The position numbers and the translations under genes were made by a program. 64,000 nt of DNA from Archaeoglobus sulfaticallidus PM70-1 (GTDB lineage Archaea; Halobacteriota; Archaeoglobi; Archaeoglobales; Archaeoglobaceae), in assembly GCF_000385565.1 (NCBI RefSeq), contig NC_021169.1:1532571-1596570 (forward strand). Reading direction: 5' to 3'. Positions 8,723 to 22,093 of the stretch are shown here, piece after piece. How positions within the stretch are numbered: the stretch's first letter is position 1; the number at the start of each line of letters is the position of its first letter. The notes below the pieces were generated by a model, which worked only from the letters and a program-made list of their open reading frames with translations, made no database searches and was not told where the DNA came from.

Positions 8723-8763
8723 CTTTTTGCATACTTAAGCTTCTATAGTGTGAACAAAAAGCA

Positions 8764-8776
8764 TTTAGTATATAAT
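8764..8776 (+). promoter_or_regulatory. TATA-like promoter for the unknown gene and FtsZ-like gene
   Basis: TTTAGTATATAAT lies about 24 bases before the ATG at 8794, which is the spacing for a leaderless transcript. It supports 8794 as a real start. Confidence 0.55.
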
Positions 8777-8793
8777 TTCAACAAAAGTTACCT

Positions 8794-9102
8794 ATGAATT
8801 GTAAACACAAATTAAATAATAAACATGTATCTATACTCATTTTGCTTCACAATATCATGACAGAATCGATGAATGAGGCAGGATTTAACTTTGAACACTG
8901 CGGGAACATAGCCCTGCTCGGCGAAAGTGTACCCGTTATGGAATCTCCAATGAGCATGGCGATTCTGAAGGCTATTAGGTATGTTTCGAGCATCAGGAAC
9001 TGGTTCAGAGATGGCATACTTCTCATTAAGAGAGTCATCGGCGATAAGAGGGTGCTTTCATCCAGCAGGTCGAAACATATAATGGTGGAAACTTCATCCT
9101 GA
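8794..9102 (+). CDS. Protein of unknown function (102 residues), co-transcribed with the FtsZ-like gene
   Basis: I do not recognise this family. The frame has a well-placed TATA box 24 bases before its ATG and ends 12 bases before the FtsZ-like gene, whose GAGGTGAT ribosome site overlaps this stop, so the two form one unit. The N-terminal 25 residues are lysine- and asparagine-rich followed by VSILILLHNIM, then NIALLGESVPVMES and a basic C-terminus (KRVIGDKRV, SSSRSKHIM). There is one free cysteine at each end and no obvious membrane segment. A long frame on the opposite strand overlaps it but reads like a shadow (serine- and leucine-rich). An ATG at 8857 is an alternative start. Confidence 0.55.
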   Translation: MNCKHKLNNKHVSILILLHNIMTESMNEAGFNFEHCGNIALLGESVPVMESPMSMAILKAIRYVSSIRNWFRDGILLIKRVIGDKRVLSSSRSKHIMVETSS

Positions 9103-9114
9103 GGTGATAATTTT

Positions 9115-9606
9115 ATGAAGACAATCGCAGTAGTTGGTTCGGGAGGAGCCGGACAGAACATTGTTAACATATTCAAAAGAGAGTCTGAATACGAAAATGT
9201 AGATATTTATGTCGTCAATGGTGAAAAATGGGTTGATTGTGTTGAATTTTACAAATTTAAGCAACTTGATAAACTTATCAAAGTACTGTCTGAGTACGAC
9301 CATGTTATACTAACTGCAGGACTTGGTGGAAGGGGCGGAGATGCACTAGTAAAGCTGGCAAATGAGTTGGATAACATTGCAGGTATTGTTGTGTGCAAAC
9401 CTTTCAGGATTGAGAGATCGAGGGTTGAAAGAGCTGAAGAACAGATAAAGTTGCTAAAGAGTAATGTGGTATTGAAAAATTTAGACGAATTGATTGAGAA
9501 GATGCCCGATATAGCAATACACGATGGATTAATGACTTTAGATATGGAATTGGTTGAGGAGATTACTAAGATCATTCAAAGATTGTTTTACTCCGAGCAA
9601 AAATAA
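9115..9606 (+). CDS. Short FtsZ/tubulin-like GTPase-domain protein
   Basis: A 163-residue protein that begins like FtsZ: MKTIAVVGSGGAGQNIVN (FtsZ GxGGAGxN nucleotide loop, residues 8-15). The place of the tubulin signature GGGTGTG is taken by GLGGRGGDA (residues 69-77), followed by KLANELDNIAGIVVCKPF, which parallels the FtsZ strand leading to the PFxxEG motif, and RAEEQIKLLK. The sequence stops after the segment corresponding to the central H7 helix, so the catalytic T7 loop (NxDxxD) and the whole C-terminal domain are absent. Self-activated GTP hydrolysis by polymerisation is therefore unlikely. It could bind nucleotide, cap or regulate a true FtsZ, or act on its own. GAGGTGAT precedes the ATG. 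Confidence 0.75.
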   Translation: MKTIAVVGSGGAGQNIVNIFKRESEYENVDIYVVNGEKWVDCVEFYKFKQLDKLIKVLSEYDHVILTAGLGGRGGDALVKLANELDNIAGIVVCKPFRIERSRVERAEEQIKLLKSNVVLKNLDELIEKMPDIAIHDGLMTLDMELVEEITKIIQRLFYSEQK

Positions 9607-9728: not shown

Positions 9729-10280
9729 ATGGAAGTCTCTGAGCTAGATATTAATATATATCTCGGATTATCAGATTACAAGAATATTCCAAAGTTGCTT
9801 TTCCCATTCAACGAACATTATTTAATGTTCGCAGTTGCCGAAGATTTGGAAAAACAGGGTGTCAAACATATTTTAGAGCCTGCAATTCCCATAAGCAGAG
9901 AATATCCTATTAAAATTCATGGAATTAACTTTCCTGAATTAGGATTCGAAACAAAGACGAGTATGTTTTACCCAGACATATTTATTCCAGAATACGGCTT
10001 CTTCATCGAGGTCGAGAACTTTTACAACCCAGACCCTTTGGAACACTTTTATGAATATTTGTGGCTGTTCGAGGAAAATAGTTATCCTTTTTATGGTTGC
10101 GCTCTAACTTGGAAATGCAAAAAGCTCGTGGAATCTCCAGACCTTTACTTTGTAGATCCAATCACAGGCAAAACAAGCATATCGGTAATCAAAGGTGAAC
10201 CGGTAAAAATACAAATGGACGAGAATTCATATCCCACAGGTAAGCCCCATACTTGGGTCCAATATGAGTTGTTTAGATAG
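9729..10280 (+). CDS. Nuclease-like domain protein, first half of a reading frame split by TAG
   Basis: This 183-codon frame has a PD-(D/E)XK-like core: FYPDIFIPEYGFFIEVENF, with D83, E94 and E96 in the positions of the metal-binding residues (E-V-E where E-x-K is usual). It ends at a TAG at 10278-10280. The same frame continues without another stop for 173 codons (10281-10799), where a second and more canonical nuclease core is found. The pair may therefore be one protein of about 356 residues interrupted by a nonsense codon, two proteins translated separately, or a readthrough product. The ATG at 9729 has no clear ribosome site, consistent with a leaderless start. Codon and base composition are AT-rich. 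I do not recognise the specific family. Confidence 0.65.
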   Translation: MEVSELDINIYLGLSDYKNIPKLLFPFNEHYLMFAVAEDLEKQGVKHILEPAIPISREYPIKIHGINFPELGFETKTSMFYPDIFIPEYGFFIEVENFYNPDPLEHFYEYLWLFEENSYPFYGCALTWKCKKLVESPDLYFVDPITGKTSISVIKGEPVKIQMDENSYPTGKPHTWVQYELFR

Positions 10281-10319: not shown

Positions 10320-10799
10320 GTGAGCGAGAGTGGCCACGTTTTTGTGCCAGATGAAATCAAGATTTCATCCAATGAAGGTATTGTAAGCTGGAAACCGGAA
10401 AGATTTACAAAGTTCTCTGGCTGGAAACACGAATCTCCTGCTTCTCCAGTACCCAAGGAAGTCCCAGTACGTGTTGACCTATGCTCTTACGACGGAAATG
10501 AAGTAAATTGTTTCGAAGTTAAAATACCAAAGGAGTTTACAAGTGAGAGAAAGGCGATTAGAGTTCTTCAGCAGCTTTACACGTATATGAAGTTAGGAGT
10601 CTTTGACAGAGTGTGGTTAGTTGGTCCCTATGATTGGTTGAAACAATTGTGGGAAGGAGCTCCCGAAATCTTTTTCGGAGAATTGGGAAAAGTGGGCATT
10701 CTCGGGTACGAATACTCGAAGAGAAAATTTGAGGTCGTAAAGGATGCAGAAAAACTCAATGTTAAAAAACGTGAATATATCACGATTGAAGAAGTGTAA
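10320..10799 (+). CDS. PD-(D/E)XK nuclease-like protein, second half of the split frame
   Basis: In phase with the preceding frame and separated from it by one TAG codon. From the first possible start (GTG 10320) it is 159 residues, and 13 codons of open frame precede that GTG. The core reads RVDLCSYDGNEVNCFEVKIP, with D53, E66 and K68 forming a canonical D...ExK metal site, followed by the helix RVLQQLYTYMKLG, typical of restriction-endonuclease-fold proteins. The strand FDRVWLVGP follows as expected for this fold. Because the GTG has no good ribosome site, independent translation looks weak, which favours either a recent nonsense mutation in a single gene or readthrough. The cellular role is unknown. 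Confidence 0.6.
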   Translation: MSESGHVFVPDEIKISSNEGIVSWKPERFTKFSGWKHESPASPVPKEVPVRVDLCSYDGNEVNCFEVKIPKEFTSERKAIRVLQQLYTYMKLGVFDRVWLVGPYDWLKQLWEGAPEIFFGELGKVGILGYEYSKRKFEVVKDAEKLNVKKREYITIEEV

Positions 10800-20442: not shown

Positions 20443-21258
20443 ATGAACTATCCCATTAAACAATTAGAGAAATTGGCCCGTAAAATACAGGAGCTCTTAG
20501 GTGAATATCATAATGAAGAACTTCGCACCTTAAATTTTGACATTCCATGGGAAGAAAGAACCCGAATGTCGATGGAAGCATCAAGTAATTTTATGAGAAG
20601 AGCAGGGGTTGAAGTTCTTCCTAATGTACAAAAAGTACTTGCTGAAATTGAGGCATTATTGGAGGGGGAAGATAAAGCAATTACTGAGCGCATACGACCA
20701 ATTCTCTCGGAAGCAAAGCAATGGGCAGATCATCCTACAAATCCGCTTGGATACGCAGAATTATCAACACAATTAATGCGTCTTGCAGGACATCTTTCAG
20801 TTAGAGTGGTGGCGAAACCCACCATTTTTATAGGGTATCGTTACACTGCAGAAGATGAGAAACTGGCAAATAAATTTATTCAATTATTTGAACTTGAGGG
20901 ATTTAAGTGCGTATCTGGGAAAACTGCTAAAGCTGAAGATATAGATAAAAAAGTTAAAAAATTGATTGACCAAAGTGAAGGGGTCATTATTATATTCACT
21001 AGAGAAAAAGAGTTGAAAGATGGTGGCTGGACTACTTCAAGATGGTTAACGGATGAGAAAGCATATGCTATGGGTAGAGGCAAACCTGTTCTTCTTTTCT
21101 TTGAGAATTGTATTGCACAAACTGAAAGGAAAGGAATTCACGGTGAGCTTGAATACGTTGAATTTAATCGTGAACACCTTGACGAGGCATTCTTAAAAGC
21201 AATTCCTTATTTAAGAGACTTTCGACAACGAGTTTTAGAGAGAAAGGGGCATGAGTAA
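20443..21258 (+). CDS. TIR-domain protein, probable defence effector (cassette 1)
   Basis: A 271-residue soluble protein. Residues 1-120 form a helical domain I do not recognise. Residues about 125-225 form a TIR-like fold: PTIFIGYRYTAEDEKLA (strand A and loop), GFKCVSGKTA, a SEGVIIIFTRE strand, and RWLTDEKAYAMGRGKPVLLFF, where E205 occupies the place of the catalytic glutamate of NAD-cleaving TIR domains. Prokaryotic TIR proteins commonly deplete NAD+ on phage infection, often on a signal from a partner. The ATG is preceded by AAGGAGGTGAT (20427-20437), a very strong ribosome site inside the cassette leader. Arginine codons are CGN in about half of cases, which points to foreign origin. The specific partner, if any, is not evident. 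Confidence 0.8.
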   Translation: MNYPIKQLEKLARKIQELLGEYHNEELRTLNFDIPWEERTRMSMEASSNFMRRAGVEVLPNVQKVLAEIEALLEGEDKAITERIRPILSEAKQWADHPTNPLGYAELSTQLMRLAGHLSVRVVAKPTIFIGYRYTAEDEKLANKFIQLFELEGFKCVSGKTAKAEDIDKKVKKLIDQSEGVIIIFTREKELKDGGWTTSRWLTDEKAYAMGRGKPVLLFFENCIAQTERKGIHGELEYVEFNREHLDEAFLKAIPYLRDFRQRVLERKGHE

Positions 21259-21277
21259 TGCCGCAATGGAGCGCATC

Positions 21278-21359
21278 GCCTAACGAGAGGATATATGGCT
21301 TTGCTTTGCCTCGCCCAAATTTGCTACCGCAAACTTCAGATACCCGCCAGCCGTTAGCC
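21278..21359 (+). repeat. attC-like recombination site A (end of cassette 1)
   Basis: An 82-base site: outer boxes GCCTAAC (21278-21284) and GTTAGCC (21353-21359), inner arms GGATATATG and CAGATACCC that pair imperfectly, and a central hairpin TTTGCTACCGCAAA. A 7-base spacer separates ATACCC from the right box, as in site B. The inner part is about 80 percent alike to site C. The crossover would lie between G and TT of the right box. Confidence 0.75.
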
Positions 21360-21391
21360 GTCATTTTAATGGTCGGTGAGGTGATAAGAAT

Positions 21392-22093
21392 ATGTTAAAA
21401 AAACATAGGATTACAAGAAGGCTTGGAACTATAGTACGGGAAGCGAGTGAGGAAGTGGTACAAAGAATTTTAGATATTTATAAAGGGAATATTAGAGGGA
21501 GAGAAGAAGATATCACGGCTCAACTGGGGAGTGAAATAACCATTCATCTTATTGAAGAAATAAAGAAAAGGCTCGACGGGGAAGAATTAAACGGAGTTAA
21601 GTTTGATGTATATACTTACAAAAAGAAAAAGGAAGAAAAATTAACAGGTGCGGATTTGGCGGGAGTGCTTGAAATAGAGGTTAATGGAAAGAAAACCTCT
21701 AAAGCTTATTTGGCTCAAGCTAAAGTTTGCCAAATAAAAAGGGAAGATAGAGTTGGAAATCCAGTAATTTATTGCTACGACAAAAATATAAATGATCAGG
21801 CAAGTAAAATGCTAAACATAACTTCAGATTCCTTTTTCTTCTTATACACTAAACAAGGAATATACGTGATTCCTGCAATAGAAGTATGCTCAACTTGTAA
21901 AAATAGTATTAATACAGAGGAGCTTCACTACCATACTTTTGGAGTATTTTATGAAGAATTTTTCAAATGTTTTGTAGGTGATCATAAAATAGCTCCTATT
22001 TATAAAGACGTGAAAACTTTAGCTACTTTTGCTGAGGAGTATAAAGTTAATAATGTTCTCTATATCAAGGCAACTATTAAAAACGACGGCTAA
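21392..22093 (+). CDS. Mrr-like restriction-endonuclease-fold protein (cassette 2)
   Basis: A 233-residue protein with a nuclease core in the order E-(x)-D-QxK: GREEDITAQ with E38/E39, then LTGADLAG with D88, a strand LEIEVNG, and YLAQAKVC with Q109-A-K111. The D...QxK form is typical of Mrr and other defence nucleases. A second part contains four cysteines (KVCQ, YCYD, CSTCKN) that might bind zinc, and a YTKQGIYVIPAIE strand. The stop codon TAA lies inside the left box of attC site B, as is common in integron cassettes. Ribosome site GGTGAGGTGAT precedes the ATG. It is likely a defence or DNA-cleaving enzyme, and its target is unknown. Confidence 0.72.
   Translation: MLKKHRITRRLGTIVREASEEVVQRILDIYKGNIRGREEDITAQLGSEITIHLIEEIKKRLDGEELNGVKFDVYTYKKKKEEKLTGADLAGVLEIEVNGKKTSKAYLAQAKVCQIKREDRVGNPVIYCYDKNINDQASKMLNITSDSFFFLYTKQGIYVIPAIEVCSTCKNSINTEELHYHTFGVFYEEFFKCFVGDHKIAPIYKDVKTLATFAEEYKVNNVLYIKATIKNDG

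Follow-up and report, generated by a model that had tools for sequence, protein, structure and literature searches.

A single-domain derivative of archaeal FtsZ associated with a nuclease-rich, CARF-type gene cassette in the Archaeoglobaceae

What role can be played by a protein that retains only the first half of FtsZ? This question is raised by a 64,000-nucleotide stretch of the Archaeoglobus sulfaticallidus PM70-1 genome (hereafter the window), in which an open reading frame at 9115–9606 (+ strand) encodes a protein of 163 amino acids. The initial annotation of this locus described a minimal FtsZ-like protein that ends at the central helix without a T7 loop, and paired it with a 102-residue partner gene (8794–9102) under one promoter. 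Both of the motifs it named are present: GSGGAGQN (T1) near the N-terminus and, where the tubulin signature (T4) would stand, GLGGRGG as part of AGLGGRGGD. A ribosome-binding-like site, GAGGTGAT, lies at 9101–9108 (+) and is also found in the closest relative (L034).

Profile searches matched the 163-amino-acid protein to the FtsZ model TIGR00065 (E 4e-14) and, weakly, to the Pfam Tubulin GTPase domain (E 1e-4, under the curated cut-off); a sequence search of the PDB returned solved FtsZ sequences. An AlphaFold2 model, built from an alignment of nine family members (mean pLDDT 92, pTM 0.89), has the tubulin/FtsZ N-terminal nucleotide-binding fold. The best 12 matches of this model in the PDB were all FtsZ (E 4e-8 to 9e-7; TM by query 0.73–0.80) and the first non-FtsZ fold stood at rank 13 (E 1.6e-4, TM 0.48). 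A generic NAD-binding Rossmann fold, which had been set beforehand as the outcome counting against an FtsZ relationship, is ruled out by this comparison, as ranks 1–12 were FtsZ and not dehydrogenases.

The C-terminal part of the model is a long helix (residues 135–162) equivalent to H7 of FtsZ, and here the chain stops, in agreement with the initial annotation; the T7 catalytic loop (NxDxxD) and the C-terminal domain are both missing. Alignment with full-length FtsZ of the class showed 28 residues between S2 and the strand before T4, by comparison with 54 in FtsZ, so that the T3 loop region (around 26 residues) has been lost. The T4 signature is altered and shortened, with AGLGGRGGD in place of AGLGGGTGTGSAP of the class FtsZ and no GGGTGTG. 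The T1 GGAG, the T2 Asn, the PF..E..R of T5/H5 (here PFRIE..R), an Asn/Asp near T6 and the H7 Asp are retained. Compared with archaeal FtsZ of the same class (TIGR00065, PF00091), this protein (half-FtsZ) therefore has the same N-terminal fold, T1, T5/H5 and H7, but lacks T3, T7 and the C-terminal domain.

FtsZ and tubulin are polymerising GTPases. In FtsZ the phosphates are held by T3 and T4, and catalysis on the neighbouring subunit is supplied by T7; in FtsZ crystal structures the residues retained here form the part of the nucleotide pocket next to base and ribose. Given the loss of T3, a normal T4, T7 and the C-terminal domain, no FtsZ-type polymerisation or GTP hydrolysis is expected. 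The claim that the composite GTPase site cannot form thus holds, with T7 and the C-terminal domain absent. That half-FtsZ combines an FtsZ fold with lost FtsZ-type catalysis we regard as almost certain, and GTP-dependent polymerisation should not occur; judging by the retained pocket residues, a nucleotide-like ligand may still be bound.

When 59 class genomes and 393 phylum genomes were searched, the short form was found in 14 genomes, all of them Archaeoglobaceae; the remaining strong matches were ordinary FtsZ, and no short relatives were found elsewhere among the 393 phylum genomes. Family members are 155–187 amino acids long, against approximately 370 for FtsZ. A genome-collection scan, limited in scope by its peptide pattern, matched only Archaeoglobi, and where close relatives carry a name they are MAGs of Archaeoglobus or Geoglobus. 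A branch supported at 100/99 sets the 14 short proteins apart from the other sequences, in a tree that has several long branches and unsure inner relations. Full-length homologues had been proposed as the sign that this copy is simply truncated; no member of the clade of 14 carries a C-terminal domain, and plain truncation of a normal FtsZ is ruled out since the short form is common to 14 genomes. Three full-length FtsZ-family genes are present elsewhere in the same genome (2.08 Mb, single contig).

Pairwise dN/dS within the short family is 0.06–0.26. The window gene and its 80%-identical relative (L129) give a dN/dS of 0.26 at a dS of 0.41, with an excess of synonymous changes (Fisher p 3e-7), a comparison that leaves room for a recent loss of constraint on the window's lineage. 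Half-FtsZ is a conserved family under purifying selection and not a broken copy; it derives from archaeal FtsZ, has a single domain and is specific to this lineage. A viral or plasmid origin was rejected, as a search of viral contigs, phages and plasmids found no relatives. Weak matches in G016 and G046 were rejected as FtsZ relatives and belong to an unrelated protein family common to both genomes (cluster c33). Isolated fragments of FtsZ-like genes were seen at G010:C13:4214-4417 (L047) and G004:C26:24965-25153 (L048), signs of repeated loss.

The proposed 102-residue partner did not survive analysis. Profile searches gave no family match for this ORF; its residues 29–95, however, are 49% identical (E 4e-14) to an intact metallo-beta-lactamase-fold protein of the same genome, in which the intact beta-CASP nuclease copy lies at C1:1212283-1213809. 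At the DNA level, 8891–9098 (+) is 77% identical to the intact nuclease gene over 210 bp (E 3e-44); it is a piece of a beta-CASP metallo-beta-lactamase nuclease gene (about codons 97–166) in which single-base indels have shifted the frame. In L034 the nuclease gene is intact (510 amino acids) and ends with its stop codon just upstream of the FtsZ-like start. This 3′ end, TTCAT..TGAGGTGATAATTTT, is retained in the window (surviving end and stop at 9094–9102, +), from which it follows that about 345 codons have been lost from the middle of the gene; the junction shows a short match, TTCAT. Codons 1–34 of the ORF derive from a 146-bp piece of a multicopy element (8748–8893, +), with which the copies of G007 and G008 share 70–71% identity; each of these genomes has 5–7 copies, the window's genome has one, and several copies lie near contig ends in related genomes. 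The element has an ORF of up to 125 amino acids and is possibly an insertion sequence. The 102-amino-acid ORF as a real gene is thus ruled out: it is a chance fusion of element piece and nuclease pseudogene, and the two genes under one promoter are absent here. The case shows that a pseudogene fragment is able to pass for a partner gene.

The real partner family in relatives is the 510-amino-acid beta-CASP nuclease, encoded within a CARF/RmuC/McrBC cassette and RNase-J-like by NCBIfam. By profile, a typical cassette comprises CARF3-wHTH, RmuC, beta-CASP nuclease, McrB, McrC, CARF_m1 and a CARF-associated PIN, with class-II glutamine amidotransferase (winged helix), TPR and GmrSD genes as add-ons. 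The FtsZ-like gene adjoins the nuclease gene in L034, L035 and L037 (the contig of L037 ends inside the nuclease gene), lies with it in one run of minus-strand genes in L036/L112, and stands beside the nuclease remnant in the window. The L035 protein is a fusion of the FtsZ-like domain with a dual-specificity phosphatase, whose HCSGGLGRTG motif is intact. Of the 59 class genomes, 25 contain the nuclease, whole or in fragments. In the window's branch, five of eight loci have a nuclease gene or its remnant no more than 12 kb away, for which random placement has a probability of approximately 3e-8 (a rough estimate that assumes 1.2 nuclease genes per genome). Two of the eight (G014 and G035) are in genomes without the nuclease. 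Most cassette-bearing genomes do not have the FtsZ-like gene, which is accordingly not essential to the cassette, and no short FtsZ-like gene was found in 20 nuclease-cassette neighbourhoods outside the class. The full nuclease-rich cassette, known here only from the genes it contains, is probably antiviral. Two further short loci lie near Csm6 and CARF genes (L040) and near a glutamine amidotransferase and a ThsB-like TIR gene (L038). In G051 a minus-strand operon (L051:1-4426) comprises glutamine amidotransferase, nuclease, CARF and unknown genes and, at its upstream end, a gene for an FtsZ relative, a 292-amino-acid protein that is different from the short clade, retains a C-terminal domain and has no orthologue in the class.

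An intact CARF–RmuC–beta-CASP nuclease–McrB–McrC–CARF_m1–PIN cassette is also present in the genome of A. sulfaticallidus, outside the window (L111:5314-15001, about C1:1210313-1220000). Cassettes of this type recur across Archaeoglobaceae, and reduced versions occur in further families of the phylum.

Since the nuclease gene adjoining half-FtsZ in the window is a deleted, frameshifted remnant, and the fragments in G010:C13 and G004:C26 show that loss of the FtsZ-like gene happens, half-FtsZ might itself be a functionless relic of a decayed cassette in this genome. We consider this improbable: the reading frame and the ribosome-binding-like site are intact, the dN/dS against L129 speaks for constraint subject to the reservation given above, and DNA conservation between the window and L034 stops almost exactly at the end of the FtsZ-like gene.

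The T5/H5 segment of half-FtsZ closely resembles that of host FtsZ (PFRIERSRVERAEEQ versus PFRIERARLIKAEEG). Together with the retained N-domain fold and the setting in a defence cassette, this likeness would suit an effector of division arrest, i.e. a half-FtsZ that binds host FtsZ by its remaining face, caps or poisons the filaments and stops division of the infected cell. In FtsZ structures, however, T3 and T4 take part in the longitudinal contact, and it is these parts that are missing and changed, respectively; neither was a toxin–antitoxin-like pairing seen. Division arrest is therefore in our judgement unlikely.

A sister branch of the family differs in its surroundings. In six genomes of genus g2 (L041–L046) the FtsZ-like gene directly follows, in a conserved genomic place, a gene for a protein of 140–147 amino acids with a hydrophobic N-terminus and no Pfam match. 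This branch lies outside the cassette, with no linkage to its genes, and is under strong purifying selection (dN/dS 0.06–0.25); with another partner and outside the cassette, it indicates that the family is not confined to defence. The conserved pairing and this selection would also fit an ancestral role at the membrane, to which linkage with the cassette is secondary. No protein of the 140–147-amino-acid type adjoins the gene in the window's branch, though, and the FtsZ-like protein is without a membrane anchor in both sequence and model, so that an envelope-linked factor seems very improbable. The filament cap and the membrane-remodelling factor of the initial annotation likewise found no direct support in the window's branch; the nearest approach is the hydrophobic-N-terminus partner of the sister branch.

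A nucleotide sensor, its further suggestion, is possible. The reading that we prefer is regulatory. Half-FtsZ would keep that part of the FtsZ pocket which faces base and ribose, would neither polymerise nor hydrolyse GTP in the manner of FtsZ and, in its own branch, would be a non-essential accessory to a defence cassette of the CARF type, most likely as a small nucleotide-binding regulatory subunit gating the neighbouring nuclease. In the window's genome, where the local nuclease gene has been destroyed, half-FtsZ could act in trans for the intact cassette at its other site. Taken whole, i.e. as a non-polymerising FtsZ derivative acting as ligand-binding accessory regulator of the nuclease of a CARF-type cassette, we hold this proposal to be evenly poised; as regards its parts, a link of half-FtsZ to defence is fairly likely, on the evidence of its neighbours, and ligand sensing is suggested tentatively from the pocket residues. 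In a broader and more speculative form, a single-domain FtsZ-fold protein might sense a nucleotide or second messenger for a CARF-type immune cassette of archaea, or act there as a brake on host division; immunity would then have recruited the tubulin fold, perhaps on two occasions (once in the short clade of 14 and once in the 292-amino-acid relative in G051). If true, the half-FtsZ family would represent the FtsZ/tubulin fold as a switch or sensor and not as cytoskeleton. Its repeated placement beside CARF, RNase and McrBC genes, together with the phosphatase fusion, is a concrete starting point, open to test, for finding a new component of antiviral signalling in archaea or, alternatively, a connection of infection with cell division.

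Two divergent families, FtsZl1 and FtsZl2, were described by Makarova and Koonin (2010; PMC2875224). FtsZl1 proteins are about 1000 amino acids long, with a coiled coil, a helical domain, GGGTG(S/T)G and vWA, OmpA and kinase gene neighbours, and have an FtsZ-like N-domain without a recognisable C-domain; they are presumed to be accessory beside a normal FtsZ (PMC2875224). Half-FtsZ shares with them the lack of a recognisable C-domain and a presumed accessory role, but has 163 amino acids, no GGGTG(S/T)G, no coiled coil or helical domain and no vWA, OmpA or kinase neighbours. FtsZl2 retains T1, T4, T6, T7 and H7 and adds a 300-amino-acid C-terminal region (PMC2875224); like half-FtsZ it is a divergent family of FtsZ-like proteins to which no role in division has been assigned, whereas in half-FtsZ the T1–T7 set is incomplete and no such C-terminal region is present. 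CARF-type and McrBC (type IV restriction) defence cassettes, as in the neighbourhoods of PMC11090510, have the same CARF, McrBC, RmuC, PIN and nuclease parts by profile as those of the relatives described here; unlike the latter, they showed no FtsZ-fold component in the PADLOC defence systems or in the literature found. The open-access literature yielded no paper about the half-FtsZ family and none about CARF/McrBC cassettes that contain a gene of the FtsZ type, which is weak evidence of novelty. The short clade fits neither FtsZl1 nor FtsZl2, and clade and cassette appear undescribed in that literature.

Other genes merit brief mention. Two small genes of the window, downstream of half-FtsZ (9729–10280 and 10320–10799, both +) have no Pfam or PADLOC match, and their products resemble PD-(D/E)XK nucleases by eye; the first of these genes is present in no other genome of the class. 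AlphaFold2 modelling of the 161-amino-acid neighbour k21, from an alignment of two sequences, gave a pLDDT of 50, and the model was set aside. Further along the window, at 20443–22093 (+), a gene for a TIR-domain protein (TIR_2, E 2e-5, just under the cut-off) is followed by one for a 233-amino-acid protein without a convincing match, and the two are possibly another defence pair.
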